The notes under the pieces: generated by a model | Database searches by the model: none | The model's input: only the letters and a program-made list of their open reading frames with translations | Told to the model about the DNA's origin: nothing | NCBI RefSeq assembly: GCF_019204045.1 | Contig: NZ_JAGSPC010000004.1 | Span: forward strand, 1-64,000 | Reading direction: 5' to 3' | DNA from: Erythrobacter crassostreae | Lineage (GTDB): Bacteria; Pseudomonadota; Alphaproteobacteria; Sphingomonadales; Sphingomonadaceae | DNA length: 64,000 bases | Position numbers and translations under genes: made by a program | In this document: positions 22,356 to 42,767 of the stretch, piece after piece | Numbering within the stretch: position 1 is the stretch's first letter | Layout of the letters: every line of letters begins with the position of its first letter

Positions 22356-22535
22356 ATGAAAAATGCTGAATTAGATATTTCATTTGATTTAGACGATCTC
22401 GGAGATCTCGGCGACTTTGAAGTCGTGTCACTTGGTGATGCGATGGCTATGCCGGAAACTGGTGCATCTAGCGGCATCAGTTCTTGCAACTCGTCGTCTT
22501 GCTGCCTCTCGACGTCGACTTGTCAGCTCACCTAA
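22356..22535 (+). CDS. Thiopeptide-type RiPP precursor peptide
   Basis: A 59-residue peptide behind a near-perfect SD (gaggagg, spacing 5). The leader (1-37) is acidic, with LDISFDLDDLGDLGDFEVV and then LGDAMAMPETGA. The core begins at S38 in the junction ETGA/SS and is almost entirely Ser, Thr and Cys: Ser at 38, 39, 42, 43, 46-48, 52 and 54, Cys at 44, 49, 50 and 56, Thr at 53, 55 and 59. Thiopeptide precursors such as TbtA and TclE also end their leaders at 'GA' before a Ser. S48 is followed by two Cys, like the second pyridine-forming Ser in known thiopeptides. S38 to S48 has the 1-to-11 spacing that I recall for TbtA. The start is chosen by the SD; longer in-frame starts exist. Confidence 0.88.
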   Translation: MKNAELDISFDLDDLGDLGDFEVVSLGDAMAMPETGASSGISSCNSSSCCLSTSTCQLT

Positions 22536-22544
22536 GGCGAATAC

Positions 22545-22582
22545 TGGGTGACTGGCTTTGATTTATCTGGGTCAGTCACCCA
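22545..22582 (+). terminator. Hairpin behind the precursor gene, probable attenuator
   Basis: A perfect 10-bp stem tgggtgactg/cagtcaccca lies 9 bp after the precursor stop and is followed by 'atttcatcatc', a poor T-run. Partial termination here would give more precursor mRNA than enzyme mRNA, a common arrangement in RiPP operons. The 290 bp to the next gene (22583-22872) are AT-rich, hold no gene, and could contain a second promoter. Confidence 0.6.
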
Positions 22583-22872
22583 ATTTCATCATCATGCGCT
22601 TCGGCTTGATGTGGGTTTGGATTGAAAATAGTATATTACATTCAAAGTTCATCAAACGAGATGATCTGGTTTGTGGATTTCAATATTAATTTGGATTGTG
22701 GATGGGCTTGATTCGATAGCTCTTAGTAAATTGTTCGTATGAGATTCAAAAAATTTGATTTTCGAACTATTGAAGTTTCCAGACTCAATTAGAAATTTCA
22801 TATTCTTCATTGACGCCGATCAGATTAAGTGTTTGATTGCATTTAGTCATTGGGTCGGGAGCAGAATCAATA

Positions 22873-23604
22873 ATGTCAAAAGGCGTTGCCCTAGAGATTG
22901 TTGGTCTACAAAAAAGTTATCCTGACGCATTAGCGTTATCGAATGTTTCACTTCAAATTGAAAATGGTCAAGCCGTTGGTATTATTGGGCCAAACGGAGC
23001 GGGTAAGACGACGTTAATTGAAATAATCATGGGTCTTACCAAGCCTGACTTGGGGTCTGTTTCAATCAATGGCCAAGATATTCGTGATGATGCCAATTTG
23101 ACCGCTACCCTTGGGGTGCAGTTGCAAGAGGCAAACCTCTTTCCCCGTGTGACAGTGGGCAAATATATAGACCTCTTCGGCAAGCTCTACGATACTCAGG
23201 CCAATCGCGATAAGATCTTGGCCGATCTCGATTTACTTAGCCATGTCGATAAGAAGTTTGGCGATTTATCGGGCGGCCTGAAGCAGCGTGTTTTGCTGGC
23301 TTTGTCTCTCATCAACAATCCGGACATCCTGCTGCTCGATGAGCCTACGACGGGTCTTGATCCTGTTGCGCGCGAAGACTTGTGGTCCTTCATAAAGGAG
23401 TGGCACGTCGGGTCGCGAACTCTGCTTTTGACGTCCCATTTTATGGATGAGGTTGAGCGGCTTTGCGACCGGGTGGTTGTGCTGAATCGAGGGCGGGTGG
23501 TCGCCGATGACACCGTGCCGAACCTGCTGTCGCATGCGCCGGCCGGCAAGGATACCTTGCAATCAGCCTATTCATTTCTGCTGGAGGGGGTTGGGCATGA
23601 ATAG
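22873..23604 (+). CDS. ABC transporter ATP-binding protein (ABC-2 type exporter)
   Basis: A 243-residue ATPase with Walker A GPNGAGKTT, Q-loop LGVQLQEANLF, signature LSGGLKQR, Walker B ILLLDEPTTGLDP and H-loop TSHFMDE. It pairs with the permease that overlaps its 3' end by 8 bp. Its place directly after the precursor and before the modification enzymes suggests export of, or self-protection against, the peptide product. The ATG at 22873 gives the normal N-terminus (SKGVALEIVGLQKSY). Confidence 0.9.
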   Translation: MSKGVALEIVGLQKSYPDALALSNVSLQIENGQAVGIIGPNGAGKTTLIEIIMGLTKPDLGSVSINGQDIRDDANLTATLGVQLQEANLFPRVTVGKYIDLFGKLYDTQANRDKILADLDLLSHVDKKFGDLSGGLKQRVLLALSLINNPDILLLDEPTTGLDPVAREDLWSFIKEWHVGSRTLLLTSHFMDEVERLCDRVVVLNRGRVVADDTVPNLLSHAPAGKDTLQSAYSFLLEGVGHE

Positions 23605-24328
23605 CCGTGCGTTAATCGCGTTTTCACTGTTCGAGCTGTCGCTTTTTTTCAAAGCTTTTCTGGCGGTTCTGTTTACGTTCGTGATGCCTTGTGTGATTTT
23701 GGCGGTGGTCGTTTCTTCAAGCGAAGACCCTGTCGCGATGGCGACAGAACTTGTGCCTGTTCTGGTTGGTTTGATCATCGTTTTTGTGGCGGTGTTTACG
23801 CTGGCGGTTCAGCTCGTGATCTACACAGAGACGGGGTTCTATAAGAGGCTTCTCGTCACGTATATCGACAGCACTGCAATCGCGCTTTCCAACGCGATCA
23901 GGGGGTATTCTGTTGTCTTGATTGGCCTGACGTTGATCCTGGCCGAATGCCTGATTTTGACCGGTGTTTTCCCTGACATCAATATCTTCTGGGGTCTTGT
24001 TGCCATTCTCATCGGGGGCGGCGGGTTCTTCTTGCTCGCCATAATACCGGCCTGTTTCGTGAAGAGCGCCAATACGATGTTCACGATGTCTACCGTTCTT
24101 AGTTACGTCATTATTTTCTTCTCTGGAACGATGCCTCCGTTTGGTGGGATCGGAATTGCAGTCAACGTGATTTCGCAATTCATGCCTGGGTACCATTTGC
24201 TTGGCGTCCTTCGCGCCGGTTTCGAAGGGGACCTGCTGACCACAAGCGCCATGATTAGCACCGCCTATATGCTGGGTTGCGCCGCGCTCGGTATTTTTGT
24301 GGTGCGTCGTAACCTGAGCTGGAGATAG
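23597..24328 (+). CDS. ABC-2 type permease
   Basis: A 243-residue membrane protein with about six transmembrane helices (FKAFLAVLFTFVMPCVILAVV first). The ATG at 23597 lies inside the end of the ATPase gene, so the two are translationally coupled. The region with FSGTMPPFGG and the last helices fits the ABC-2 fold. With the ATPase it forms a drug- or peptide-type exporter for the cluster. Substrate and direction are inferred from context. Confidence 0.85.
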   Translation: MNSRALIAFSLFELSLFFKAFLAVLFTFVMPCVILAVVVSSSEDPVAMATELVPVLVGLIIVFVAVFTLAVQLVIYTETGFYKRLLVTYIDSTAIALSNAIRGYSVVLIGLTLILAECLILTGVFPDINIFWGLVAILIGGGGFFLLAIIPACFVKSANTMFTMSTVLSYVIIFFSGTMPPFGGIGIAVNVISQFMPGYHLLGVLRAGFEGDLLTTSAMISTAYMLGCAALGIFVVRRNLSWR

Positions 24329-24334
24329 GTTGCG

Positions 24335-27082
24335 ATGAACGTTGTGCCTTCCAATGCAGGATTGAGAGCTCCGTCCGTCCACGCGGAAGCCTCCGAGGCG
24401 CCAGATCAGGAGTATTTCTGTCATCCCAATATGTTTTTCAGGGTGGCCGGATTACCATTTCAGGCATTCGATGCCATGTGCCCAGGGCATACATTCGCAA
24501 AGCTGACCCAATTGCGCGCGATGAACGAAAATCTGGCACCGCTCATCGATCAAGCGAGCTCGATTCTGGAGCGCGCCATCGGCCACGATGCTCTGACAGA
24601 TCAAGAGCGGCGGAGCCTGATTAAGTTGAGGCGCGATATCTTTAACCAGCGCGTCGCAGGATTGCAGCCGGCGCAAATCTCTGTGAATGTGTTTGCAGAT
24701 GGCGAGCTGGAAATTGTTAGTCAGGCCTGCGATGAGATCGCAGAAGTCGTTCGTATCGAAAAGGCTCTGGCTGACGAATTCGCTTCTGAAATCGCAGAAA
24801 TCGGGTCGGCGACAAGATATCAGAGCCTCGCCTCGGAAAATTTTCTCAAAGCGCTCTCGATCAGCGCGCCCAAATGCATCGATGATCTTTACGCCTCGCA
24901 AGCCAATCCTGCGAAATACACGGGTAAACGGGGGCGCAACCTCAACGCGGCTCTGTTCAATTACCTTATGCGTGCTTCCACCAAGGTAAGCCCGTTATCG
25001 TATTTTACTCCAATCGGTGTCGCGAAGCTTAGCGATGGACCGCACGGTTCGGTGACGGAGCTGACCGAGGCATCCATCAACAATGAAGTCCAGATCAGTC
25101 GCCGTGCGATGGACCAGATATTGTTCTTGCTCACGCGCCGGATTCAATTCTGGGGGCAGGATTTCCCGCTAAAGCTCAATCCAACTGTCAAGGAAATGGA
25201 TGGCTACCTGCAGTTTGCAAAACTGTGGGACAAGGGTGAGGCTGGGCCGCGGGTTTGGGGAACAATGCTGCCTTTTGGTCGTGTGCCCAACAGTCCGGGT
25301 ATCGGCGCGTTGGTTGCTGCATTTACCGACGATCAGAGCGCTCTTAATGTTGGTGAAATCTATTCTCGCATCGCAGGATCATCCCCTGGGTTTGACCAAA
25401 AAGCTTTTGTGCGTCTGGTCGCACAGTCTCTTGCTGCCGGGCTGTTACTCCCTGACTTGCCAATTTTGGATCAGGAAAGCGATCTGAACTGGTTGGCCGG
25501 TTTTGTTAAGCCGCGTTTCCCTGAGTTGGGAGAAGAGCTTGAACAGCTGGAAGCGAAATGCGAGGCCTATTCGCGTTGCGATGCCGCTGATCGTGTCCAG
25601 ATAAGCCGTCAGCTTCACGGTCACTTTGCGAAGTGTCTTGACCTTCTCAAAGCCGAGGAAAACAAAGAGCCGAAAGGCGTTCTCTTCTATGAAGACTGCT
25701 TCCTGGCGGGGCCGCCAGCAGAAGTGGGCACTGGTTCCCTTGGCTCAGTTATTGAAGACACTCACGTCTTTTCTGAGTTATTTCCGCTCCTTGATTTCAC
25801 TCATATGGTGCAGTCAATAACGGCGTCGTTGTTCGCGGAGAAATACGGCGCAGGGGTTCGTGTTAGGGCTTCGGATTGTGTCGATGAATTGTCGCAGGAA
25901 GCCACAGCCTATGCGCAGTCCGTTTCTCCGCTGCCTCTAGAGGAGCAGCGCAAAGAAGTCGGCAAGACAAATGCGAATGCAGATAAGCTTCTTGCCCTCA
26001 AAGCCGAGTTGCTTGGGGAGCTTGCAGAGCTGCTTCGTCAGGGCGAACCGGTCGATCTGGATGAAGCCTTTATTGCGAGTTACCGCGATCGCATCCCTAA
26101 TGTGGTGCGCAATCGCGCGACTTCGTACACGGTTATCGGACAGCTTGATGACTGGGGCGGATCGGCTGAGGAAAAACGCCATCCGGCGTTCGCCATCAAT
26201 CGCTTGTATTCCGGGCATTCGATGCTCGCCTCACGGTTTCTTTCGAACCTATCGGAAGGAGATTTGGAAGACGTTAGGGGATACATTTCGAGGATCGCGG
26301 AGCACCGCCATCCTTTTGAAATGCCTGGAGCATTCGGTTTCAATGCAAACCTTCATCCGCGCTTTGTTGATACCGAGCTGAAGGTACCCGGGCGACGTCC
26401 GAATTATGGCGAGACCGAGAAGTTATCCTTGGATGATATCTTTGTGGAGTATGATGAAGCGTTAGACCGGCTGTGCCTTACGCATGAACGGCTTGGTGAA
26501 CTTGCCCCTCACTATTTTGGCTTTCTGGTTTTGAGGATGCTTCCTAGCGAGCACCAACTGCTTGTCCGCATGAACATGCAGGGTCTCATAATAGATCTCT
26601 GGCAGGACCTCGATTATGCGGGGCATGTTGATCCTGACGAGGTCGTGCTGTTGCCACGTGTGACATTTGGTTCGCTCATATTGATGCGGCGCAGCCTTTT
26701 TATTCCGCCAGCAATGCAGCCCGATCCCGGCTTGGACGAGTTTCAGTATTTCCGCGCTTTTGAAGAATTGCTCCACGAATTGGGCGGCGATGCAGACTAC
26801 TTTGCTCGGCTCATGGCTAACCAGGAGGACATCATCGGTGGACAGGAAGGGCTTGGCGGAATGGGTGAAACCACGGACTTCAAACCGAGCTACCTTTCGC
26901 TGAAATCGCCGCCAACGATCGCGGGCCTCCAGCGGCGTTTACGCCGTCGGCCCCGCCGGATTGTGCTTCAAGAGACTTTGCCAGCAATCAACAAAGGCGG
27001 GGTGCTTTGGAATGGCGATCGGCATGCTTGCGAAATCCAGTTCGAAGTTTCGAAAGCCAAGGCCTGTGAGGCAAGCGAATGA
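24335..27082 (+). CDS. LanB-type dehydratase, glutamylation subunit (thiopeptide TbtB-like)
   Basis: A 915-residue protein of the lantibiotic-dehydratase N-terminal family, which uses glutamyl-tRNA to glutamylate Ser/Thr of the precursor. The stretch NYLMRASTKVSPLSYFTPIG (about residue 208) matches the conserved 'RASxRxTPFG' region. The C-terminal elimination domain of full-length LanB is absent. This is the split arrangement of thiopeptide and goadsporin clusters, with separate SpaB_C proteins at 27079 and 37650. The start follows the permease stop by 6 bp with SD 'ggagataggt'; its stop overlaps the next start (ATGA). Activity is inferred from family and context. Confidence 0.85.
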   Translation: MNVVPSNAGLRAPSVHAEASEAPDQEYFCHPNMFFRVAGLPFQAFDAMCPGHTFAKLTQLRAMNENLAPLIDQASSILERAIGHDALTDQERRSLIKLRRDIFNQRVAGLQPAQISVNVFADGELEIVSQACDEIAEVVRIEKALADEFASEIAEIGSATRYQSLASENFLKALSISAPKCIDDLYASQANPAKYTGKRGRNLNAALFNYLMRASTKVSPLSYFTPIGVAKLSDGPHGSVTELTEASINNEVQISRRAMDQILFLLTRRIQFWGQDFPLKLNPTVKEMDGYLQFAKLWDKGEAGPRVWGTMLPFGRVPNSPGIGALVAAFTDDQSALNVGEIYSRIAGSSPGFDQKAFVRLVAQSLAAGLLLPDLPILDQESDLNWLAGFVKPRFPELGEELEQLEAKCEAYSRCDAADRVQISRQLHGHFAKCLDLLKAEENKEPKGVLFYEDCFLAGPPAEVGTGSLGSVIEDTHVFSELFPLLDFTHMVQSITASLFAEKYGAGVRVRASDCVDELSQEATAYAQSVSPLPLEEQRKEVGKTNANADKLLALKAELLGELAELLRQGEPVDLDEAFIASYRDRIPNVVRNRATSYTVIGQLDDWGGSAEEKRHPAFAINRLYSGHSMLASRFLSNLSEGDLEDVRGYISRIAEHRHPFEMPGAFGFNANLHPRFVDTELKVPGRRPNYGETEKLSLDDIFVEYDEALDRLCLTHERLGELAPHYFGFLVLRMLPSEHQLLVRMNMQGLIIDLWQDLDYAGHVDPDEVVLLPRVTFGSLILMRRSLFIPPAMQPDPGLDEFQYFRAFEELLHELGGDADYFARLMANQEDIIGGQEGLGGMGETTDFKPSYLSLKSPPTIAGLQRRLRRRPRRIVLQETLPAINKGGVLWNGDRHACEIQFEVSKAKACEASE

Positions 27083-28173
27083 CAGCAATTCGAATAGACT
27101 ATCATGATCCCGAGCGGCTCGGTTTGATTGCAGGTCCGTTGAAAGAATCTTTTGACGCTTTGCGAGAACAGAACCGCGACGCCGCCATATTCCTTCGCTC
27201 GGGTTGGAAGCATGGGCCACACCTTAGTCTTTGCGTGATTGGCGACACCATCAATGACGATGCAATCGCACGCGAGTGCGAGAAGCTGCGGGAATGGGTT
27301 GATACCAATCCGTCAGATGTCAGGCTGACCGAAGACGCGTATCTGGCAAACGCGCGGAAGCTCGGTACGTTAGAGGGGATCGAAGGGCCTTATCTTCCGC
27401 TCAATCCCGATAATACTGTTCAGGTGGTGGAGCACTCACCCCCAAGATTGGTCGATGGTCATGATGTTCTGCAGCCTCTGTACCTACGTTACCTTTCAGA
27501 CACTGCGCCGTTGCTGTTCGAGATATCCAGTCTGAAACAGAACAACAATAATCTCGCTAGCCTTCTACTCATGGCGATGCTCGCGAAATCCGCCTCTCAC
27601 TATCGGCCTTACGGTATCGAAAGAGGGTTCATTTCCTTGAGAGCCCATGCGGACTTCTTCTTTGCCAATTTTGACCAAAGCGGGAAGATCAAGCAGCGGT
27701 TTGACACTCTCGCGACTGGCACCGCGTCGCTTCTTGATGACGCTATAGGTAACGCGCAAGAAATCGGCAAAGCCGAGGGCAAGCAAGATACAGTCCAAAG
27801 CGTGCTGCGGCGATGGTCTGAGATACTCGAAGAAACGCGCGTGTCCATCGATGCAGCTGCCGATGCTGACGATGGTTGGTACAGTTACACGCCTATGAGC
27901 TTTCCCGAAGAGCAAGAGGAAGCTTTGGCCGGCCAATTCCAAGATGCAGGAATAGACGCCACGGTTAGCAAGGGCGACACACTTACCAAAGTGCATGAAG
28001 CTCATGCCGAAGGGCTCGACACGAGCTTCTTCTCTTCTCGCGAATTTCAAACATTCCGTATCATTGTGAACATGTTTTACTCGATCCTTCCGCCGCTCGG
28101 GATCTCGCCAGTGGAACGGTTCGGGATGTGCCATCTTGTCGCGAGCGCGGTGGAACGGAAATTGAAGCAGTGA
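27079..28173 (+). CDS. SpaB_C-family protein, likely thiopeptide pyridine synthase (TbtD-like)
   Basis: A 364-residue member of the thiopeptide-type SpaB_C family. The N-terminus IRIDYHDPERLGLI, then GWKHGPHLSLCV, GTLEGIEGPYLPLNPDNTV and YGIERGFISLRAHADFF resemble the divergent paralogues that build the central pyridine by formal [4+2] cycloaddition and release the leader (TbtD, TclM). The RYGG motif of true eliminases is missing; the copy at 37650 has it. This makes the cyclase role more likely for this gene. It overlaps the LanB gene by 4 bp and the next gene (GTGA) by 4 bp. An eliminase role remains possible. Confidence 0.72.
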   Translation: MTAIRIDYHDPERLGLIAGPLKESFDALREQNRDAAIFLRSGWKHGPHLSLCVIGDTINDDAIARECEKLREWVDTNPSDVRLTEDAYLANARKLGTLEGIEGPYLPLNPDNTVQVVEHSPPRLVDGHDVLQPLYLRYLSDTAPLLFEISSLKQNNNNLASLLLMAMLAKSASHYRPYGIERGFISLRAHADFFFANFDQSGKIKQRFDTLATGTASLLDDAIGNAQEIGKAEGKQDTVQSVLRRWSEILEETRVSIDAAADADDGWYSYTPMSFPEEQEEALAGQFQDAGIDATVSKGDTLTKVHEAHAEGLDTSFFSSREFQTFRIIVNMFYSILPPLGISPVERFGMCHLVASAVERKLKQ

Positions 28174-29873
28174 CGGAACATGCCGAACCAAAAATCGCGC
28201 TGAAGTCTGGGGTGTTCTACTCGGCTTTCGATCAAGGCGTAGTGTTCCGCGGCGGTGAAACGCCTGTCATCCTTCGCGGAAAGAATGCACTGCGGCTTGT
28301 CACTCCGGTCGTGGCGGCAATGGAAAATGGCGTTACGAAATCCGGCCTGCTTGAACTCTTGCCCGAACCGGTCCGACCGGTGGTTCTCAACCTTCTCAAT
28401 GATCTGCAAGAGTCGAATTTGCTTCGTCAGCGGAGGCCCACGGATTCAAACTGTGAAGATGATCTTGATGCCAACTTTAACTCATTCTGGTTGTTCCTCC
28501 GGGACAATCTGAAAAGCCCGGGGGATGCGCTCCAAAAATGGCTTAGCACTCAATTTGTCATTCAAGGTGATCTTGATGCTGTTGCATGGATGGTTGAAGC
28601 GCTCGCCGATACCGCAGCTCGCAATATTGCCATCATGCCTTTGCCTAAGGGCGATCTTGATGAGGTTGATCGCTTGCTTACCGATCTGCGCGCTCGGCAC
28701 CCACATATCCAGTTTGATAAGGGGGCGGATGCGCCAGAATTCTCGTCGACAGTCCGGATCCTTGCAGGTGGAAGAACACCTGACCTAGCGCGCGAATGCG
28801 ACTGGTCTGATGGTTGGTATTTCGGAGTGCTGTCCGGTCATCTGGTTTCTGCAAAAGTCGACGGGAGCTTTGCAGAACGGCTTTCCGATTGGAACGCCAG
28901 ACTAACTGAACCGGAACGCGCCGTCCGTAGCGGCAGAGTTGCTGACAACAGGTTTAAGCTGGCCGCATCAAGTCTGGCATTCGGCATTCTGTGTGATGAG
29001 GTCGGCATGGCGAATACAGATCAATCAGACGACTGGCTGTTCGTGACGCAACCTGCTCTTCGATTAAGGGCCCTTTCCTTGCCTCGGCCCGTTTCCTTTG
29101 CGGCTTCTGCCGAGGAAGCGGCTGTCGCGGACGAAGAGCTCGATATCGATGCCAAGATTGATCTGATGAGCTGTGTTCTTGATCCGGTGACGGGGTTTCT
29201 TGATCGTCTTGATGATGAGGAGCAAGTGCCATTGTCTGTGGTACGGTACCGGGTTCGCGGCCTGAGTGACGGAGCACAAAACGAATTGATTGTCTCTGGT
29301 TGGGGGATGACCCATCAGGAGGCAACGCTCGCGGGGCTACAAGCCGGTGTCGAAGTGTTTCTTACCGACAAAGCGAGAGAACAGGGATTGGACGGCTTCG
29401 CAGGGGTCGGTTGGTCTCCTGAGGACGCGATCGCTGCATCAAACCGCAGAATTGTCGAAGAAGGTCTCGTCGCTTCTAGTGAACATCCATGGGAGGCGCT
29501 GCCTCTCGAAGATATTGATGATGCGGAATGCTGGCGCTTGGCACGGCTGTTGGAAATGGTTTCAGGCGCCACAGTAACACTGAAAAGGAGCGTACTAGAC
29601 GGCGGCTATTTCGCTGCAAAATGCGCAGTTGGAGATCACCCAGAGCAAGTTGCGGCCGCCCCGCAAATTGCAGAAGCAGCGTGGCAGGCATTGGGCACAG
29701 CTGCTTGCGCGCTCCAGCAAGTTTCCGCCCAGCCAGCCGGTTCTTTTGCAGGGCCAGTCAATCAATCCGGTGGCTCGGTTGATCTGCAAGTCGGCCTTCT
29801 CACCGCAGATCTCGGCTATTCGGAGCTCGACGGCAAGTTCATCTGCAAGCTCAGCGAGCGCCGCAGGCCGTGA
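28170..29873 (+). CDS. Ocin-ThiF-like partner of the azoline-forming YcaO (TbtF-like)
   Basis: A 567-residue protein starting at GTG 28170, which overlaps the previous stop. The N-terminal 90 residues (LKSGVFYSAFDQGVVFRGG and the helices after it) look like the winged-helix leader-binding region (RRE) of F-type proteins. The middle is a degenerate ThiF-like Rossmann domain without a catalytic Cys or ATP loop (FVIQGDLDAVAWMVEALAD). A C-terminal domain includes SGWGMTHQEATLAGLQAGVE. Such proteins bind the leader and present the core to the YcaO enzyme. It sits directly before that gene with a 4-bp overlap. Assignment rests on architecture and context. Confidence 0.72.
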   Translation: MTEHAEPKIALKSGVFYSAFDQGVVFRGGETPVILRGKNALRLVTPVVAAMENGVTKSGLLELLPEPVRPVVLNLLNDLQESNLLRQRRPTDSNCEDDLDANFNSFWLFLRDNLKSPGDALQKWLSTQFVIQGDLDAVAWMVEALADTAARNIAIMPLPKGDLDEVDRLLTDLRARHPHIQFDKGADAPEFSSTVRILAGGRTPDLARECDWSDGWYFGVLSGHLVSAKVDGSFAERLSDWNARLTEPERAVRSGRVADNRFKLAASSLAFGILCDEVGMANTDQSDDWLFVTQPALRLRALSLPRPVSFAASAEEAAVADEELDIDAKIDLMSCVLDPVTGFLDRLDDEEQVPLSVVRYRVRGLSDGAQNELIVSGWGMTHQEATLAGLQAGVEVFLTDKAREQGLDGFAGVGWSPEDAIAASNRRIVEEGLVASSEHPWEALPLEDIDDAECWRLARLLEMVSGATVTLKRSVLDGGYFAAKCAVGDHPEQVAAAPQIAEAAWQALGTAACALQQVSAQPAGSFAGPVNQSGGSVDLQVGLLTADLGYSELDGKFICKLSERRRP

Positions 29874-35009: not shown

Positions 35010-36274
35010 TGGGCACTTCGGCAAAAACTCTTGATGCATGCCACCTTCTTGAAGGAACAAAGCGCGCCCGTCGCTTAGACGAGACTTGGGAATGGCTGAC
35101 TGATAAAAAGGCGATGGCCGGCGTTACGCGTGTCGGCAACGTCACCGGGCTTGATACTATCGGAATTCCTGTTTGGGTTTCGGTGCGCCCAAATTCGCGC
35201 GGTCTAGCGGTTTCTCAGGGCAAAGGCGCGACGCACGAGGCGGCCAAGGTTTCAGCCTTGATGGAATCGATTGAGAATTGGCACGCCGAGGAGATTGACG
35301 CCCCGCTGCGTGTGGGCAGCTATGAAACTTTAAAGTCTTTGGTTTCCCCTATCGACCCGCGCTCCTTCACTCATTGGGGGCGAGTGGCTTTGCGCGATGA
35401 TCTCGCGCTTACATGGATCGAAGGTCACGAGCATTTCTCAGACCAAAAGGTCTGGATCCCATATGAAATGGTCAGTGGCGACTATGTCGTCCCGGCGAGT
35501 AAATCTGTCACTGCCGCGGTGTTCGTTCAATCCAGCAACGGGCTGGCAGGGGGCAATACGTATTGGGAAGCGGCAACCCATGCGCTGAGCGAGGTGATTG
35601 AACGCCACACAATCTATCAGAACGAAAGAAAAATACGCGAGTTTTCGGACGAGATAAAGCTGTCACCCGATGCGGTGCGGGAGCCATTTCTAAAGCAGCT
35701 TCTTGAACGGCTGCGGCAGGCCGGCATGCTTGTTCGCCTTTTTGCGCTGGGGTCTGACATTGATCCGAGCGGGACCCGTATACCCGTAATCGCTTGCTCG
35801 ATCCTTTCTGCGGATGACGGCACCTACTGGCGCAACTTGCCTCCCTTTAATGGCTATGGCTGCCATCTTGACCCAGCGATTGCGATGGCCCGCGCCATTA
35901 CCGAGGCGGCTCAAAGCCGATTGACTTACATCGCCGGCGGACGAGATGACATTAATCCGGGGCAATATCGCGCGGGCGCTCATCCGGACGATCTGGTTGC
36001 GTATCGCAAGCTGTTTTCAGACGGTGACGCAGGCCGGTCAATCAGGTTTGAAAGGCCGGATACTGGGCAAGAATTCGATTCTGACTTCAACACCATTGCG
36101 GCGCTTTTGAAATCACGCGGATACAATAAAATTGTTATCGTGGACCTTGCCAAACCCGATGTCGGTATTCCGGTTGTCAAAGTTGTCGTGCCCGGATTGC
36201 AGGTCCCCTCATCGCTCGTCGGCGGGGCCGAAATCGTTCAACCTAATCCAGTTTCGCCGGTGGGCGGCCCATGA
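35009..36274 (+). CDS. YcaO protein of the TfuA-associated (thioamidating) type
   Basis: A 421-residue stand-alone YcaO. ATP-site motifs are VSQGKGATHEAAKVSALMES and SSNGLAGGNTYWEAATHALS followed by EVIERH. It lacks both the CxxC region and the proline-rich tail of the azoline-forming YcaO at 29870, so it is a second, distinct enzyme. YcaO proteins encoded beside TfuA install backbone thioamides, as in methyl-coenzyme M reductase and thioamitides. The ATG at 35009 overlaps the E1 stop (TGATG). The target is probably the same precursor peptide; this is inference. Confidence 0.85.
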   Translation: MGTSAKTLDACHLLEGTKRARRLDETWEWLTDKKAMAGVTRVGNVTGLDTIGIPVWVSVRPNSRGLAVSQGKGATHEAAKVSALMESIENWHAEEIDAPLRVGSYETLKSLVSPIDPRSFTHWGRVALRDDLALTWIEGHEHFSDQKVWIPYEMVSGDYVVPASKSVTAAVFVQSSNGLAGGNTYWEAATHALSEVIERHTIYQNERKIREFSDEIKLSPDAVREPFLKQLLERLRQAGMLVRLFALGSDIDPSGTRIPVIACSILSADDGTYWRNLPPFNGYGCHLDPAIAMARAITEAAQSRLTYIAGGRDDINPGQYRAGAHPDDLVAYRKLFSDGDAGRSIRFERPDTGQEFDSDFNTIAALLKSRGYNKIVIVDLAKPDVGIPVVKVVVPGLQVPSSLVGGAEIVQPNPVSPVGGP

Positions 36275-37653
36275 CAGACTACGTATTTCTGGGCCCATCA
36301 CTGCCGCAAAAAGCAGCCAGCGAAATCTGCGATGCGGTATATTTGCCGCCCGTTGCAATGGGCGACATCTACAAAATCGTTCAGACGCAGTGCAAACCTG
36401 GCGACAGGATTGCAATCATCGATGGGCTGTTCGAGCAGGTTCCGGCCGTTTGGCACAAAGAGATACTGTTTGCGATTGACCAGGGTTATCCGGTTTTTGG
36501 TGCATCAAGCATGGGCGCGCTTCGCGCGGCTGAGCTACACCCTTATGGTATGATCGGTGTAGGCCGGATTTACGAGGCCTATCGGGATGGGACGATTGAA
36601 GACGACGATGAAGTCGCTGTATCCCACGCACTGCGAGAACACGGCTATCGAAGCCTATCGACATCGATGGCCAGCATTCGTTTTGCGTTAGAGGATGCGC
36701 TTGAGCGTCAGGAAATCGATCCGGCTTCGGCAGTCGCACTTATCGATCACGCGAAGAAGCAGCACTATTTTGAGCGCAACTGGGGCGATCTTCTGGAGGT
36801 CGCTAAAGGCCTTGAGGGCTTTTCAGAACAACGCGAGGTCTTGCTTCGTCTTGCGAGACAGCCTGATGCAAAAGCGATCGACGCGGAGCGACTGCTCAAG
36901 CTGCTCAGCGCCGACGAGAAGAAGGTTCCACCGCCTGGCAACTTCACTTTTCAACACACAACGTTCTGGCAGGCCTTTTCAATGGACCGGTCGCTTGATG
37001 GTGATGGTTCTCGGGACATCTTGAGCGATCATATACCCAGCACCTTCTCGTCCGGGATCCCCGAGTATTTCAGGGCTGCTGGCCCTGAGCGGACGCACGT
37101 ACTTGATTTGGCGTTACTCGATAGGCTGATCGAAGTGTTCGCAGCTGAATACAAACCCACGGGGCGGGATATTGCATTGGCCGCAGCGAATCTAAATCGC
37201 GAATTGCCGAAAGACGTTTTGGGTGGACCCTTAGGGCAGCTTGGGAAAGTCGCCCTTCGAGAACAGGCCGAATTTGCAGCGCAGCGTGATTGGCTGCTTT
37301 CCCGGCTTGCTGCGGGGCTGGATCCCCACATTTTGCGGCGCCTTGTCCTGAGAGGCGATTTTGCGGAATTTGCCTCGCTTGTGACGGATGAAATCGATGA
37401 CCAGCGGAAAAACGGCGCGGAAAAAGCATCGCTTGAATCGCTTGGTCTGGGCGTTGCAGAATTGGAGGATTGGTATCGCGAACGCTGCGGGCGGATGACA
37501 CCTGATCCCGAAGGACATGCAAAGCGCTTGGGCTTCGAAAGCCTACGCCAATTCGTCGATTGCGCCACGGTCGTGTTCCTCGCTGACCGCAAAAAAGACC
37601 CGCAAAAATCCTTTGCCAATGATTTGTCACACACTTTTGAGGATCAAGAATGA
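36271..37653 (+). CDS. TfuA-like protein, YcaO partner for thioamidation
   Basis: A 460-residue protein whose first 200 residues are a TfuA domain (FLGPSLP, YLPPVAMGDIYKI, IAIIDGLFEQVPAVWHKEIL, GYPVFGASSMGALRAAEL, DDDEVAVSHA). The C-terminal part (about 210-460) is a helical extension that I do not recognise and is longer than usual. TfuA proteins help YcaO enzymes use a sulfur donor. It overlaps the YcaO gene by 4 bp and the next gene by 4 bp. TfuA was first named from trifolitoxin production. Confidence 0.88.
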   Translation: MTDYVFLGPSLPQKAASEICDAVYLPPVAMGDIYKIVQTQCKPGDRIAIIDGLFEQVPAVWHKEILFAIDQGYPVFGASSMGALRAAELHPYGMIGVGRIYEAYRDGTIEDDDEVAVSHALREHGYRSLSTSMASIRFALEDALERQEIDPASAVALIDHAKKQHYFERNWGDLLEVAKGLEGFSEQREVLLRLARQPDAKAIDAERLLKLLSADEKKVPPPGNFTFQHTTFWQAFSMDRSLDGDGSRDILSDHIPSTFSSGIPEYFRAAGPERTHVLDLALLDRLIEVFAAEYKPTGRDIALAAANLNRELPKDVLGGPLGQLGKVALREQAEFAAQRDWLLSRLAAGLDPHILRRLVLRGDFAEFASLVTDEIDDQRKNGAEKASLESLGLGVAELEDWYRERCGRMTPDPEGHAKRLGFESLRQFVDCATVVFLADRKKDPQKSFANDLSHTFEDQE

Positions 37654-38642
37654 ACTCCACTGTTAACCTGAAAAAGTGTGAAGAACTGAAGGCCGAAATG
37701 CGCATCGGCGATTGGCGCGCTTGGCATGTTTTCGTTCATAATCCAGTCGCGTCGGAAGAGGTGCTCGTAAGGTGCTTAGGCTCTGAGATTGCATCTTTAA
37801 GTCAAGAATTTGATGAGCTGAAATGGTTCTTTATCCGGTATTGGGAAAATGGTCCGCATCTGCGCATCCGGTTGTGCAACGCACAGGACACCGCGTTCTC
37901 TCGCTTGGGCGAGAAGCTTTCAGAGGCAGCCAGTTCAGCGGCAGAAAGAACGCCGTCTACCATATCTAGCTTTCCCGAAGATATGCCGGTTGATGGCTGG
38001 CACAGTTCAGCCAATGCCGCGCCTTGGTTCGATGAAGGCGCCGTTTTGGAAGTCGCCTATGAGCCGGAGATCCGGCGTTATGGAGGGTCGGTAGCGATTG
38101 ATCTCGCTCATAAGGTTTTTCAAAGCTCTTCGAAAATTGCGATACCCATCGTTGGGCAGACGCTCGGCGATATGAGCCGTCGTCAATCGGTTGGATTGGA
38201 ACTCACCGCGACAGCAATCGGCGTGCTCGCATCCGATCGGGAAGAGTTCACATTATTTGCACAATCGATGAGCGAAGGTTGGAAAGGGTTTTTAACCGAT
38301 CCCGATGGTGCAACCGCTCAAATCGATGCGATCCACAATGCGGCCTCTGATCGTATCAGAGCTTGGATAAACAACGCGCTCGACAGTGAAAGCAGCGAAC
38401 TTTCAAAAGTCGCTACTTTATGGCGCACGCTCCTTGTCAATTATTTTGATGCTTTGAGAGATTTGTACAATCAGGGTTTGCTTATTTCTCCACTGACCGG
38501 GGTTCGGCCGAAAGATGAAAGCGAATTATCTGACGCTTTGCATAATATTCTTTTCTCACAAATTCATATGATGAATAATAGGTTGGGCTTAACTCCCGCT
38601 AATGAGTATATATTTGCGAACGCTTTTATAAAGGCGTCTTGA
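37650..38642 (+). CDS. SpaB_C-family glutamate eliminase (TbtC-like)
   Basis: A 330-residue protein with the classic lantibiotic-dehydratase C-terminal motifs: WHVFVHNP, FFIRYWENGPHLRIRL and YEPEIRRYGGSVAIDLAHK. It should remove glutamate from glutamylated Ser/Thr to give dehydroalanine and dehydrobutyrine, completing the reaction begun by the LanB subunit at 24335. It lies 10 kb from that gene but in the same operon, overlapping tfuA by 4 bp. GC content falls towards its 3' end. Confidence 0.82.
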   Translation: MNSTVNLKKCEELKAEMRIGDWRAWHVFVHNPVASEEVLVRCLGSEIASLSQEFDELKWFFIRYWENGPHLRIRLCNAQDTAFSRLGEKLSEAASSAAERTPSTISSFPEDMPVDGWHSSANAAPWFDEGAVLEVAYEPEIRRYGGSVAIDLAHKVFQSSSKIAIPIVGQTLGDMSRRQSVGLELTATAIGVLASDREEFTLFAQSMSEGWKGFLTDPDGATAQIDAIHNAASDRIRAWINNALDSESSELSKVATLWRTLLVNYFDALRDLYNQGLLISPLTGVRPKDESELSDALHNILFSQIHMMNNRLGLTPANEYIFANAFIKAS

Positions 38643-38685
38643 GAATATAATTATTCGCTGAAACTAGGGATCGGATTAAGTCGAG

Positions 38686-39747
38686 ATGGAAGGCACAGAA
38701 AACGATCGTGGCAAACTTTTGCGATCTCTTTCTCTTGATCGCGAAGAGTTCGACGGTGATGAAGTCAGCAAGGTGCGGCCCAACTGGCTATTCTTGCTGA
38801 TCGCTGGCTTGGTGGGGATAATCTTAGGCGCAGGGATTGTATCCGCCTGGAGCGTTGACGAAAGCGAAGGCTCCTCTGAAAGTGAAGTGGCGGAAGCTTC
38901 GTCTTCTACCAATCAATCTCAACCGGCTGCAGCCGAGCCGGCTGGATTGGTTGCTTCGGGTTATGTTGTGGCGCGAAACCAAGCCACTGTTGCAGCCCAG
39001 GTCACTGGCCGGATAACCGAAATCCGGATTGAAGAAGGTCAATCAGTGACCCGCGGACAGATTCTCGCTGTTCTTGATCGCGACGTCATAGCGTCAGAAG
39101 TGTCAACGGCATCAGCCAGGTTGGCTTCCTCACGCTCTAACCTCGATGCTCTGAAGGCGGAGCTCAAAGAGGCCGAGGCCGATCTTGGGCGAGCCATAGC
39201 TTTGGATGAACGCGGTTTCGTTACCAAAGCGGAGCTTGGTCGTAAGCAAGCATCGGTAGATAGCCTTGGCGCCCGAATCCGCGGAGCTAAGGCCGACATT
39301 TTGGCTGCCAGTGAAAGTCGAAAAGGCGTGCAGAACCGCGCTGAGCAGTACTTCATCCGCGCCCCGTTTTCCGGCGTGGTGGTCGGACAGAATGCGCAGG
39401 TCGGTGAAGTAATCTCACCAATTTCGGCCGGGGGCGGATTCACCAGAACCGGCATCTGCACAATTGTTGACATGTCTAGTCTGGAAATCGAAGTCGACGT
39501 GAACGAGCAGTATATCGAACGTGTTGCCGTGGGTCAGGCTGCGGAGGTGTCTTTTGATGCCTACCCATCCCTGAAGGCGGATGCGCGCGTGATCGCGATC
39601 GTTCCAACAGTGGACCGGGCGCGGTCTACGCTTCGGGTTCGCATCGCATTCGATGAAACAAACCCGCGTTTCATTCCCAATCTGTCGGTCAAGGTGCAGT
39701 TTCGCCCAGTCTCCGAGACCCGCAATCCAAACTCAGATGGAGCCTGA
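38686..39747 (+). CDS. Periplasmic adaptor (membrane fusion protein, MacA/HlyD-like)
   Basis: A 353-residue protein with a cytoplasmic start, one transmembrane helix (about 31-55, WLFLLIAGLVGIILGAGIV), then the lipoyl half-motif (ASGYVVARNQATVAAQVTGR), a coiled-coil hairpin (about 130-215, ASARLASSRSNLDALKAELK), the second lipoyl half (FIRAPFSGVVVG) and a beta-barrel. It would link the ABC permeases to an outer-membrane channel of TolC type, not encoded in the window. It begins 43 bp after the eliminase gene and probably belongs to the same transcript. Confidence 0.85.
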   Translation: MEGTENDRGKLLRSLSLDREEFDGDEVSKVRPNWLFLLIAGLVGIILGAGIVSAWSVDESEGSSESEVAEASSSTNQSQPAAAEPAGLVASGYVVARNQATVAAQVTGRITEIRIEEGQSVTRGQILAVLDRDVIASEVSTASARLASSRSNLDALKAELKEAEADLGRAIALDERGFVTKAELGRKQASVDSLGARIRGAKADILAASESRKGVQNRAEQYFIRAPFSGVVVGQNAQVGEVISPISAGGGFTRTGICTIVDMSSLEIEVDVNEQYIERVAVGQAAEVSFDAYPSLKADARVIAIVPTVDRARSTLRVRIAFDETNPRFIPNLSVKVQFRPVSETRNPNSDGA

Positions 39748-39750
39748 CAT

Positions 39751-40443
39751 ATGGCCAATATTTTCGAACTTCGAGATATCACTAAGGTCTATAGTCGCGG
39801 GCGAGAGAAGATCGAAATCTTCTACGGTTTGGATTTCGCCGTTCCCGAAGGAGACTATGTTTCGTTGATGGGGCCGTCGGGTTCGGGAAAGACAACGCTT
39901 TTGAATTTGCTAGGCGGGATTGACCGGGCAGACGGCGGAACGATTGAGTTTCGCGACCAGCGGATCGATACCTTTTCAGAGAGCCAATTGTCAGGCTGGC
40001 GGGCGAGCAATATTGGCTTTGTTTTCCAATTCTACAATCTCATGCCGATGCTGGATGCCGCACAGAACGTTGAACTGCCGCTACTGCTGACAAAGCTAGG
40101 CGCCAAGGAAAGAAAAAGGAGAGTGGCTTCCGCATTGGAAGCCGTCGGCCTAACCGCAAGATCCGGCCATCGCCCCAACGAAATGTCTGGCGGACAGCAA
40201 CAGCGAGTGGCCATTGCACGCGCTTTGATCGCCGATCCTCCGGTTCTGCTTTGCGACGAACCAACCGGCGATCTGGACCGCAAGAGCGCGGAGGAAGTCC
40301 TTGAAATTCTGAATTTCTTGAATGACGATATGGGTAAGACAATCGTCATGGTTACTCATGACCCGGCCGCCGCCGGACGCGCGCGCAGATTGCTCAAGCT
40401 GGACAAGGGACGGTTTGTCGCGACCGAGAAAGCTGATGCATAA
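39751..40443 (+). CDS. ABC transporter ATPase (MacB/LolD-type)
   Basis: A 230-residue ATPase: Walker A GPSGSGKTT, signature MSGGQQQRVAIARAL, Walker B PVLLCDEPTGDLD and H-loop MVTHDPAAA. This is the class that drives FtsX-like permeases of the MacB/LolCDE type. It follows the adaptor gene after 3 bp and overlaps the first permease gene by 8 bp. Confidence 0.9.
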   Translation: MANIFELRDITKVYSRGREKIEIFYGLDFAVPEGDYVSLMGPSGSGKTTLLNLLGGIDRADGGTIEFRDQRIDTFSESQLSGWRASNIGFVFQFYNLMPMLDAAQNVELPLLLTKLGAKERKRRVASALEAVGLTARSGHRPNEMSGGQQQRVAIARALIADPPVLLCDEPTGDLDRKSAEEVLEILNFLNDDMGKTIVMVTHDPAAAGRARRLLKLDKGRFVATEKADA

Positions 40444-41584
40444 CAGTACCCTCGTCGTGCGCAATTTGCTGCACAATAAATTGAGAACTGCGCTGCTTTG
40501 CATTGCTGTTGCCAGCAGCTTTCTGTTGTTCGGGTTGCTCGCCAGTTTCCATTTCAGCGCACTGAATACTGACACAAGCGGCAGTGACCGGTTGATTGTT
40601 GCCAATAAAATCAGTTTCACGCAGCCATTGCCGATCTCATATTACGAACAAGTGGCGCAGACAGAGGGCGTGGATGCGGCAACGCATAGCACCTGGTTCG
40701 GCGGGTATTACCGCGAACCCAGCAATTTCATCGTCTCGTTCGCGATTGATTTCGAGAGCTACTTTGATGTTTTCAGCGAGCTTGAGATTGCACCATCCGA
40801 CCTCCAAAAATGCTCTGCAACGCGTGATGGTATCGCTGTGGGCCAGGCCATGGCTGATGCATTGGGCTGGCAGAGAGGGGACAGGATCGGCCTGAACAGC
40901 GCAATCTTTATGAACCGCGACGGAGGACGGACTTGGGAATTCGAAATATGTGGTTTCTTTTCTGATACCAACGAGCGCGGTGCCGATAATGCGGTCTATT
41001 TCGGTTTCGAATACCTCAACGAGACACGCAACCTTGGCGTCGACACGATCGGGCTTGTCACGCTGACCCCGCAGTCGCCTGATCGCAACGCTAAGATCAT
41101 CAATGCGATTGATACCCGCTATACGAATTCACCGGCTGAAACCGAAACAGTGACAGAACAGCAATTTGCGGCCTCCTTTGCGCAGCAATTCGGCGATTTG
41201 AGGTTGATTATCGCGTTGGTGGTCGGCTGTTCATTCTTAACGAGTCTGATCATTGTCGGGACAACAATGGCCTCTGTGATCCGATCGCGCACCCGTGAGT
41301 TAGGCTTGCTGAAAACTCTCGGGTTCTCTGATAGTTCGATTGTGCGTTTGCTGTTGGGGGAAACGCTCGCAATCGCTCTCATCGGCGGGGCGGCTGGCCT
41401 TTTTCTCGCGCAAGTGATCTTATTGTTGGCTGGTCAGTATGCGGACCTTGGCGGCATCGATATGCGTTGGCAAGTATGGGCGACAGGCATGATTTTTGTG
41501 CTTCTGCTTGGCCTCGTAACGGCCGTGACCCCATCGATTACAGCGTTGCGTCTCACCATCCTCGAAGCATTGGGCAGGCGGTAA
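40436..41584 (+). CDS. FtsX-like ABC permease, first subunit
   Basis: A 382-residue permease starting at ATG 40436 inside the ATPase gene. One N-terminal helix (LLCIAVASSFLLFGLLA) is followed by a periplasmic domain (about 45-255), then three helices with the FtsX motif VIRSRTRELGLLKTLGFSDS. Together with the second permease it should form a heterodimeric MacB/LolCE-like mechanotransmission transporter, probably for the peptide product. Confidence 0.85.
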   Translation: MHNSTLVVRNLLHNKLRTALLCIAVASSFLLFGLLASFHFSALNTDTSGSDRLIVANKISFTQPLPISYYEQVAQTEGVDAATHSTWFGGYYREPSNFIVSFAIDFESYFDVFSELEIAPSDLQKCSATRDGIAVGQAMADALGWQRGDRIGLNSAIFMNRDGGRTWEFEICGFFSDTNERGADNAVYFGFEYLNETRNLGVDTIGLVTLTPQSPDRNAKIINAIDTRYTNSPAETETVTEQQFAASFAQQFGDLRLIIALVVGCSFLTSLIIVGTTMASVIRSRTRELGLLKTLGFSDSSIVRLLLGETLAIALIGGAAGLFLAQVILLLAGQYADLGGIDMRWQVWATGMIFVLLLGLVTAVTPSITALRLTILEALGRR

Positions 41585-41585
41585 A

Positions 41586-42767
41586 ATGACAAGTCAGTTC
41601 CGACAATTCCTTGCCGTTTCCCGTATCATTCTGGCGAGCGTTCCCAAAAGGCTCTGGGTCGCTTTGTCGATGGTTGTGGCTATCGCGATGGTCGTGTTTG
41701 TTCTGTTGGGCGCGCTTGCACTGGATAAAGGCATGCAAGCAACGTTGGACAGGGCCGGCGCAGATGACGTTGTCGTCATCCTTAGTGAAGGAGCGAGCAG
41801 CGAGGCGAGTAGCGGCCTAACAAAGGAGCAATATAGCCTTTTGGCGGAAGCTCCAGGCATCGCCACTTCCGGCAACGAATTGCTGATTTCCTATGAATTT
41901 GTGGTCGCAGTTGATGGTATTAAAAGGTCGACCGGGACCGAGGTGAATTTGCCATTGCGAGGCATCGATCCGGCAGGAGCGGCTCTTCGGACCAACTTCA
42001 ACATTGTCGAAGGGCGCAATTTTGAACCGGGTTCCAATGAGATTGTTGTCGGCAAGCATGTGATCGAAAATTTTGACGGCTTTGCTCTTGGAGAGAAGAC
42101 CCGGCTCGGAGCCTCCGAATGGGAGGTGGTAGGCGTCTTCGAAACTGGTGGTTCGGTATATGACACAGAGATGTGGGCTGATCGCCTAATCCTGCAAAAC
42201 CTCTTCAATCGCGGCGACACGGTGCAAAGCGTTCGGGCGAAGATTGACAACATAGGGTCTATCGAAGGTCTCAAGAATTTCATTGAGGAAGATCCTCGAC
42301 TGAATGCGACAGTATCGACTGAAACCGAGTTTTTCGCGAGCCAAAGCGAAGCGGTTAGCGATTTGATTACAATGATCGGTCGCCCTTTGGCGATCCTAAT
42401 GTCGTTCGGTGCGCTGGCTGGCGCGGTGAATGCGGCATTCAACTCGGTTAGCCAGCGTAGCGTCGAAATCGCGACCCTTAGAACGATCGGTTTCGGCCGG
42501 TCTGCCGTCTTTTTCGGGACCCTTGCAGAGATTGTGGTTCTTGGCGTCGTCGGCGGCGCCGTAGGCGTTCTGTTCTCCTTGCTGATCTTCAACGGGCTGA
42601 GCGCGAGCACTCTGGGAAGCAATTTCACCCAGATTGTATTTGAGCTGAGACTTACATGGAGAGAAGCGCTTACAGGTGTGACTTGGGCACTTGCGCTCGC
42701 TTTGCTGGGCGGTGTCTACCCTGCATGGCAAGCGGCCAGAAAACCTATACGCGAAATTCTGGCTTGA
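41586..42767 (+). CDS. FtsX-like ABC permease, second subunit
   Basis: A 393-residue permease of the same fold: N-terminal helix (VALSMVVAIAMVVFVLLGALA), periplasmic MacB-PCD-like domain, and three C-terminal helices with SVSQRSVEIATLRTIGFGRS. Its start lies 2 bp after the first permease stop. It is the last gene of the operon; a perfect hairpin follows at 42852. Confidence 0.85.
   Translation: MTSQFRQFLAVSRIILASVPKRLWVALSMVVAIAMVVFVLLGALALDKGMQATLDRAGADDVVVILSEGASSEASSGLTKEQYSLLAEAPGIATSGNELLISYEFVVAVDGIKRSTGTEVNLPLRGIDPAGAALRTNFNIVEGRNFEPGSNEIVVGKHVIENFDGFALGEKTRLGASEWEVVGVFETGGSVYDTEMWADRLILQNLFNRGDTVQSVRAKIDNIGSIEGLKNFIEEDPRLNATVSTETEFFASQSEAVSDLITMIGRPLAILMSFGALAGAVNAAFNSVSQRSVEIATLRTIGFGRSAVFFGTLAEIVVLGVVGGAVGVLFSLLIFNGLSASTLGSNFTQIVFELRLTWREALTGVTWALALALLGGVYPAWQAARKPIREILA

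Follow-up and report, generated by a model that had tools for sequence, protein, structure and literature searches.

A seventeen-gene operon of Erythrobacter crassostreae predicted to encode a pathway for a thioamidated thiopeptide and a protein-based sulfur supply of its own

The window analysed here is a stretch of 64,000 nucleotides of Erythrobacter crassostreae, of which positions 22356-42767 hold 17 genes, all on the + strand. This operon probably makes and exports a thioamidated thiopeptide, with a protein-based sulfur supply of its own likely feeding the thioamide step. The genes, their families, their conserved motifs, their fusions and their co-occurrence in other genomes are observed features, and the sulfur-carrier genes among them point to a thioamidated product. 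A co-oriented thiopeptide-type run had been described in the initial annotation, and its genes were indeed recovered at the positions listed there, headed by a precursor that matches two curated families. The thiopeptide pathway proposed on that basis is retained, supported by the precursor match, by the presence of the TbtB-TbtG enzyme set and by the position of the 27079 protein in a tree. The gene list was incomplete on one point, since a JAB metalloprotease (33164) and a ThiS-rhodanese-ThiF fusion (33606), both beside the YcaO/TfuA pair, had been overlooked and no sulfur carrier was mentioned. The operon, in which these two genes lie next to YcaO and TfuA, is read here as a pathway for a thioamidated thiopeptide that includes a dedicated sulfur line.

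The first gene (22356-22535) encodes a precursor of 59 amino acids and is immediately preceded by AGGAGG. The product reaches 53.4 bits against the Pfam family PF19409 (cut-off 23.5) and 55 bits against the NCBIfam model NF033400, thiazolyl_B (cut-off 30). It displays the acidic leader, MKNAELDISFDLDDLGDLGDFEVVSLGDAMAMPETGA, and the Ser/Cys/Thr-rich core, SSGISSCNSSSCCLSTSTCQLT, of thiopeptide-family precursors, the latter counting 22 residues from the inferred cleavage point, and a word-based search of 5.8 billion proteins returned 42 relatives. A gap of about 340 bases separates the precursor from the next gene and holds an RNA hairpin (22545-22582, + strand; dG -24.7 kcal/mol, z -5.2, none of 200 shuffles being as stable), a possible attenuator between the precursor and the enzymes. 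The strong hairpin together with this gap suggests that the precursor is transcribed above the rest of the operon. From there on, intergenic gaps never exceed 43 bases and 4-base overlaps occur at five of the 16 junctions (TbtB-TbtD, TbtD-TbtF, TbtF-TbtG, YcaO2-TfuA and TfuA-TbtC), as expected of a single operon.

The profile search against the TbtB, TbtC and TbtD families that had been proposed with the initial annotation was carried out and found TbtB- to TbtG-like proteins all present, the TbtD-like one under its equivalog cut-off. The dehydratase is split, as had been claimed, with both parts above Pfam cut-offs. The glutamylation part, a TbtB-like Glu-tRNA-dependent dehydratase (LanB N; 24335-27082), matches PF04738, Lant_dehydr_N (7e-13), and PDB 6ec7, a lantibiotic-dehydratase-domain protein (7e-12); the TbtC-like glutamate eliminase (SpaB_C; 37650-38642) matches PF14028, Lant_dehydr_C (123 bits, cut-off 24.4), and TIGR03891, thiopep_ocin (92.6 bits, cut-off 48.45), and reaches only 51.9 bits against the pyridine-synthase model NF045556. 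The TbtG-like azoline-forming YcaO (29870-31762), also correctly named, scores 275.6 bits against TIGR03604 (cut-off 219) and 77 bits against TIGR03882 (cut-off 36.9); its presence departs from the azole-free pyritides, defined by the lack of an azole YcaO in the part of PMC9247985 available to us.

The two other members of the azole machinery were assigned by family and fold, the signal on the window proteins themselves being weak. The TbtF-like partner (28170-29873), previously called ocin-ThiF-like, matched no profile model; TIGR03693 (ocin_ThiF_like) was found in four of the seven members of its family, the window protein not being among them (E limit 0.1). The N-terminal part of its predicted structure, a low-confidence model (pLDDT 54.7), matches the leader-binding RRE of PbtF (8t19; rank 32, E 1.7e-3, TMt 0.83). 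The TbtE-like SagB dehydrogenase (31731-33158), predicted to convert azolines to azoles, reached TIGR03605 at E 0.073 under the same limit, and all seven members of its family match that model. Its structure model (pLDDT 72, pTM 0.80) retrieved nitroreductases and McbC in Foldseek and, more weakly, ThcOx (E 6e-3); a protein search with the SagB alignment yielded four proteins, the window's own included. Both earlier assignments are thus upheld through relatives and fold rather than through the window proteins' own profile matches.

The gene at 27079-28173 is predicted to encode a TbtD-like pyridine synthase performing the [4+2] cycloaddition. Its product matches PDB 5wa3 (TbtD) at 1.4e-18, or 3.5e-26 with a profile, and TbtD and PbtD are its sole PDB matches (E 0.1; with the profile, E 0.01). 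Grouping of this protein with the eliminases had been named beforehand as the sequence side of an outcome that would count against a thiopeptide, and was not found. In a tree of 26 domain sequences, 17 TbtD-like and nine TbtC-like rows, labelled by the analysis's own profiles and freed of an uncounted number of matches shorter than 150 residues, were split with 100/100 support, and 27079 fell on the pyridine-synthase side, apart from the eliminase 37650. An eliminase function for 27079 was rejected on the basis of this split and of the TbtD/PbtD matches.

Four genes form the putative sulfur module. The JAMM/JAB metalloprotease (Prok-JAB; 33164-33613; PF14464, 4.5e-16) is predicted to release ThiS after a di-glycine, and its JAMM motif (E and HxHx7SxxD, read from the alignment) is kept in six of the six clusters that encode it. 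The ThiS-rhodanese-ThiF fusion (33606-35009; 467 amino acids) matches PF02597, PF00581 and PF00899, all above cut-off, for which we predict the roles of sulfur carrier with an internal Gly-Gly, persulfide donor and adenylating enzyme, respectively. Both the PF02597 carrier and the PF00899 E1-like ThiF are therefore present in one protein, in which the Gly-Gly is internal and would become terminal only after the predicted cleavage. In the same six clusters the ThiS domain ends in PA[IV][AS]GG, followed by a short linker and the rhodanese domain, and the CxSGxRS loop of the latter, with its Cys, is conserved. The thioamide-type YcaO, hereafter YcaO2 (35009-36274; PF02624, 3e-70; TIGR00702, 217.9 bits against a cut-off of 75.65), and TfuA (36271-37653; PF07812, 148.7 bits against a cut-off of 30) overlap by 4 bases and constitute the adjacent YcaO-TfuA pair already recognised in the initial annotation; the two YcaO matches of the host assembly both lie in this operon. 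According to the accessible part of PMC13063428, a thiocarboxylated ThiS homologue and a TfuA hydrolase tend to bring sulfide to thioamide-forming YcaO enzymes outside sulfide-rich settings, and YcaO-TfuA pairs are sometimes accompanied by ThiF and ThiS homologues (PMC9576775, available in part).

The suggested comparison of clusters across Proteobacteria was also made, and the set recurred in another genome of the same family, G518, and in four Gammaproteobacteria. Matches to the TbtD alignment were obtained in three of 396 genomes of the order (the host, G518 and G653), in two of 249 of the family (the host and G518) and in one of 398 of the phylum (the host only), and the NF045556 model matched two of 289 genomes of the class, namely the host and a 54-residue stretch of G180. 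The word-based search gave eight relatives of 27079. A contig scan with the TbtD alignment produced 163 pattern matches, none of them confirmed, and a scan with the precursor family produced ten loci, found in Aquimonas voraii, Bowmanella dokdonensis, Glaciecola sp. MH2013 and Teredinibacter waterburyi among the Gammaproteobacteria, and in two Catellatospora, Glycomyces, Hamadaea, a Pseudonocardiales and an Acidobacteriaceae assembly. TfuA was detected in four of these ten genomes, exactly the four Gammaproteobacteria, with one match each, located inside the cluster; two of the six genomes lacking it are metagenome assemblies, in which its absence is soft. In view of these occurrences, and of the proteobacterial clusters of PMC8120280 as far as its available text describes them, the pathway is not alone among Gram-negative bacteria, and the initial view of it as unusual there needs correcting. 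Two viral contig scans and a plasmid search with the precursor found no sign of a phage- or plasmid-borne origin, and three plasmid records (Streptomyces, Clavibacter) carry weak TbtD relatives.

Seven clusters were compared, those of the window, G518, G653 and the four Gammaproteobacteria, which span three orders. The latter four were fetched in full because TfuA had been found there, so that the comparison speaks of co-occurrence, not of frequency; the actinobacterial and acidobacterial loci were mapped over partial flanks. All 17 functions are present in six of the seven clusters, all but G653, with a changed gene order: five of these six have the HlyD/ABC/FtsX set between TbtC and JAB, the window has it at the end, after TbtC, and YcaO2-TfuA is divergent and upstream of the precursor in Teredinibacter. 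In G653, only the precursor, TbtB-TbtG and one ABC ATPase were matched within the 37 kb fetched, with no match for JAB, the ThiS fusion, YcaO2 or TfuA, which is consistent with these four genes acting as one module. This cluster (L012/L013) belongs to the same branch and has a very different core, SCCHNGSSCSGSTQTEITPG. Fusions further link the steps of the pathway, since TbtB and TbtD share one frame in four of the seven clusters (Aquimonas, Bowmanella, Glaciecola and G518), and JAB and ThiS-rhodanese-ThiF form a single 661-amino-acid frame in Teredinibacter.

A pathway can be proposed from these genes. TbtF and TbtG would bind the acidic leader and convert core Cys, and some Ser/Thr, to azolines, which TbtE would oxidise to azoles. 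TbtB would glutamylate Ser with Glu-tRNA and TbtC eliminate the glutamate, giving dehydroalanines, before TbtD builds a pyridine from dehydroalanine 1 and a second dehydroalanine; this step would close the ring and release the leader as an amide, making a leader protease unnecessary. On the sulfur side, the JAMM protease would cut ThiS from the fusion after Gly-Gly, ThiF would adenylate the freed terminus and the rhodanese domain pass sulfur on to give a thiocarboxylate; TfuA would hydrolyse the ThiS thiocarboxylate to sulfide, which YcaO2 would insert into the peptide backbone. Export and self-protection would fall to the MacA/MacB-like set and to the separate ABC pair. Taken as a whole, the operon may represent a self-contained, ubiquitin-like sulfur factory in a Gram-negative bacterium, in which ThiS is made as the head of a polyprotein, freed by the JAMM protease, charged by its own parent body and unloaded by TfuA; the YcaO receiving the sulfur would thioamidate a pyridine-macrocyclic thiopeptide, which a MacAB-type system would export across both membranes. 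This complete scheme is possible and is put forward tentatively.

The size of the ring was approached through the cores. Among 55 precursors, 53 were entered (L021 and L023, with L015-type cores, were not), and the L015 and G653 cores, in another register, were set aside, leaving 51 precursors with 23 distinct cores over the first 19 residues. Ser1, 5, 6, 11 and 17 are invariant, and an azole-Ser-azole pattern occurs at residues 5-6-7 and 16-17-18 in 23 of the 23 distinct cores and at 10-11-12 in 22 of them, making Ser6, Ser11 and Ser17 all candidate partners of Ser1. At three atoms per residue, the predicted rings would have 14, 29 and 47 members, respectively. Classical thiopeptide rings have 26, 29 or 35 atoms (PMC3917276) and pyritide precursors contain dehydrated Ser1 and Ser6 or Ser7 (PMC9247985), both according to the available parts of these sources. 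We lean towards Ser11 because a 29-membered ring is of classical size, the sequences themselves deciding for none of the three. An attempt to read the thioamide site from the core was dropped, as genomes with no TfuA match (L019, L022) have SSG..SSC-type cores too. One core, SSGISSCNSCSCCASTSCC, recurs in 19 of the 53 entered (database precursors P0019-P0060, L016), with close variants alongside, and is also present in a Vulcanimicrobiaceae variant and in an Acidobacteriaceae assembly; we know of no product described for it.

The two exporters named in the initial annotation were confirmed. The first comprises an ABC ATPase (22873-23604; PF00005, 116.3 bits, cut-off 25), matched in all six other compared clusters, and an ABC-2 type permease (23597-24328, with a possible start at 23507, from which it was scanned; PF01061, 27.8 bits, cut-off 26.9). 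The second closes the operon with a HlyD/MacA-type periplasmic adaptor (38686-39747; TIGR01730, 128 bits, cut-off 94.9), a MacB/LolD/DarD-like ATPase (39751-40443; PF00005, 114 bits, cut-off 25; the LolD, DarD and MacB models remaining under cut-off) and two FtsX/MacB-type permeases, at 40322-41584 (PF02687, 48.4 bits, cut-off 25.5) and 41586-42767 (PF02687 and PF12704 above cut-off). As listed, the first permease overlaps the ATPase gene by 122 bases and its start may lie further downstream. No match to the FtsX/HlyD set was obtained in the 37 kb fetched from G653 or in the partial flanks of five actinobacterial loci.

A change at the target site that would give self-resistance was looked for, and the outcome bears on the possible target of the product. 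Ribosomal protein L11 could be read in 13 of the 15 genomes and had the canonical motif in all 13 (the Aquimonas and G415 rows being dropped), PSPP[IV]GPALGQ being intact in the host and five other carriers; none of the 17 genes was recognised as an rRNA methylase. Residue 3 of the core, which we take to be the position of the Asn conserved in EF-Tu-binding thiopeptides, is Gly. The conservation of that Asn concerns 29-membered thiopeptides (PMC3917276, available in part). These observations would suit a peptide that binds metal or acts as a signal instead of inhibiting translation, an explanation that we consider unlikely: exporters could suffice for self-protection with no change at the target site, and no full-length EF-Tu was found for the host in its 84% complete assembly. 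In a comparison of 12 EF-Tu rows, those of four carriers are told apart by two columns from those of eight genomes with no TbtD match.

The assignment of the JAMM protease to ThiS release was examined against clusters in which ThiS stands alone. On plasmids pAMI4 of Paracoccus aminophilus and pRlX2 of Rhizobium beringeri, ThiS is separate from MoeB and its C-terminus is exactly AGG, as the tail of a 378-amino-acid product in pRlX2, and neither a JAB-profile match nor an open reading frame with a JAMM motif was found by profile and motif scans of the 30-32 kb fetched. Over the eight clusters compared, a JAMM protease thus accompanies a buried Gly-Gly in six and was not found with a free Gly-Gly in two; the fusion seen in Teredinibacter, like the missing JAB match in G653, goes in the same direction. 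Since RiPP (ribosomally synthesised and post-translationally modified peptide) operons often require a protease and no protease-like gene besides JAB was recognised in this one, JAB might instead act as a leader peptidase, or else as a resistance factor. This is distinctly unlikely, given that JAB is fused to ThiS-rhodanese-ThiF in Teredinibacter, that it was found neither beside the peptide genes of G653, which come without ThiS, nor where ThiS ends in a free Gly-Gly, and that the pyridine synthase step itself removes the leader, according to the available part of PMC7210931. The TfuA cluster of pAMI4 (L092) encodes TbtB, TbtC, two YcaO, a nitroreductase and the free ThiS, with a goadsporin-like precursor candidate of 62 amino acids (locus 7942-8127). 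No TbtD match was found in it and it encodes a site-2 protease, which is consistent with TbtD normally expelling the leader; its product is likely a thioamidated, non-macrocyclic azole peptide.

Several points weigh against the reading as a thioamidated thiopeptide pathway with its own sulfur supply, and against the enzyme assignments behind it. YcaO2 reaches 207 bits against TIGR03266, the McrA-thioamidation model (cut-off 365), and TfuA 190 bits against NF033432 (cut-off 235), and the two might have a different substrate. Genomes lacking a TfuA match (L019, L022) likewise carry SSG..SSC or near-identical cores, and the thioamide site is consequently not readable from the core. The free-ThiS control consists of two clusters, picked out of 353 and 528 plasmid records in which TfuA or ThiF was matched. 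TbtE and TbtF of the window match no model above cut-off, and the structure model of TbtF is poor. The 27079 protein scores 171.5 bits against NF045556, the TbtD/PbtD pyridine-synthase equivalog (cut-off 325), and the 14 further TbtD-like proteins scanned (metagenomic proteins and those of G518, G653, the four Gammaproteobacteria and two Actinobacteria) are all under the same cut-off, at 115-203 bits, which places this branch at a distance from the enzymes behind the model. Lastly, the host genome is known from an assembly of 2.59 Mb in seven contigs that is 84% complete, the window being its contig C4; the cluster does not rest on that assembly alone, as it is also carried by G518, which is 99% complete in one contig.

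Some of these points would agree with a thiopeptide devoid of thioamide, the JAB/ThiS/YcaO2/TfuA module thioamidating a different protein or serving another sulfur pathway: G653 has the thiopeptide set without the module, core motifs are common to genomes without a TfuA match, and YcaO2 resembles the YcaO of McrA thioamidation, a protein-modifying enzyme. We regard this as quite improbable, since the module is embedded in the operon (JAB starts 5 bases after TbtE, and overlaps of 8, 1, 4 and 4 bases follow through TbtC), is kept with the peptide genes in six clusters, and contains the sole TfuA match of each of the four gammaproteobacterial genomes. That the product is a linear, goadsporin-like azole/dehydroamino-acid peptide or an azole-poor pyritide, 27079 being a second eliminase or an inactive relative, is highly improbable in spite of the sub-cut-off NF045556 score and of pAMI4, where dehydratase, azole and TfuA genes occur without a TbtD match, because 27079 has TbtD and PbtD as only PDB matches and stands apart from the eliminases, the role of eliminase is already taken by 37650, the operon has both an azoline YcaO and SagB, and no protease other than JAB was recognised among the 17 genes.

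The operon is flanked by genes of other kinds. Just upstream of the precursor (17157-21427, + strand) lie genes for a Slam-like outer-membrane protein, matched in 10 of 41 genomes of the genus, the host's own included, and for a Slam-dependent TbpB-like surface lipoprotein. Near the start of the window, the TonB receptor at 3790 matches 104 plasmid records, of which 44 belong to Novosphingobium, Sphingobium or Sphingomonas, as would suit a sphingomonad, although Pseudoalteromonas is also among the best matches. Immediately beyond the operon (43916-46136, - strand), a T4-gp19-like tail tube gene and a phage tail sheath gene stand beside a DUF2975 gene, with no other tail genes recognised among the genes scanned; of the 41 genomes, only one other than the host's has a match to the sheath (33% identity). 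Near these tail genes (47046-50852, - strand), a TPR-S sensor protein and a TIR-domain TPR protein (Thoeris ThsB-like) are perhaps part of a defence or conflict island. Further on (51103-63127), two TonB-receptor genes, a GntR/FCD regulator and chondroitinase-B-like and alginate-lyase/heparinase-like genes form a probable polyanionic-polysaccharide utilisation locus.

Thiopeptides are mostly translation-inhibiting and predominantly produced by Actinobacteria (PMC7136475), and have been counted among the cluster classes of shipworm symbionts (PMC7329324), as given in the available parts of both sources. The clusters described here point to a Gram-negative source, with four named carriers, for this class, whose producers would need to export and survive the product. 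They gather the predicted donor, carrier, activating enzyme, releasing protease, hydrolase and thioamide synthase into one genetic unit, which turns sulfur delivery for peptide thioamidation into a testable question, with natural controls in free ThiS without JAMM and in thiopeptide genes without a sulfur module.

Among known systems, the thiomuracin (tbt) and GE2270 (pbt) pathways have the same six enzyme types, TbtB-TbtG, as the window, and 27079 and the RRE of 28170 match structures of TbtD/PbtD and PbtF. The end of the leader, MPETGA before Ser, resembles what we take to be MPEVGA-SC in TbtA, and the Ser-rich core begins S1-S2 where TbtA presumably has S1-C2. The window differs from both by a 27079 far below the TbtD equivalog cut-off, by the added thioamide module, JAMM protease and MacAB-like export, and by belonging to a family of clusters in which TbtB and TbtD are fused in four of seven, although separate in the window itself. 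Lactazole (laz) shares with it a split YcaO and dehydratase and a pyridine synthase that expels the leader as an amide; its Ser1 pairs with Ser12, flanked by azoles, whereas the partner would be Ser6, 11 or 17 in the window, and it comes from a compact Streptomyces cluster for which the accessible part of PMC7210931 mentions no thioamide enzyme. Saalfelduracin, thiopeptin, Sch 18640 and the proteobacterial clusters of PMC8120280 combine thiopeptide genes with YcaO-TfuA, as in the window. That report, in its available text, counts more than 1,000 proteobacterial TfuA clusters, thiopeptide-like precursors among them, with ThiS in a figure legend; neither JAB nor rhodanese occurs in its main text as available, and the fused, protease-released carrier is the difference. 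Putative thioamidated thiopeptide clusters of Proteobacteria are thus already published, and the processed sulfur-carrier arrangement appears to be new: a literature search only partly aimed at JAMM, with thin coverage of subscription journals, found no description of a JAMM-released ThiS-rhodanese-ThiF carrier for thioamidation. The pAMI4 cluster shares with the window ThiS, a MoeB-type protein, TbtB, TbtC, YcaO, a nitroreductase, ABC/FtsX, HlyD and YcaO-TfuA, and differs by having no TbtD match, a free ThiS with terminal Gly-Gly, no JAMM found and an extra site-2 protease. A parallel for the protease exists in QbsE/QbsD of thioquinolobactin and CysO/Mec+, where a JAMM enzyme acts beside a ThiF-type protein and a ThiS-like Gly-Gly carrier. 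Those systems use a small protein as the carrier, whereas the window encodes it as the N-terminal part of a rhodanese-ThiF fusion, predicted to supply the thioamidation of a peptide.

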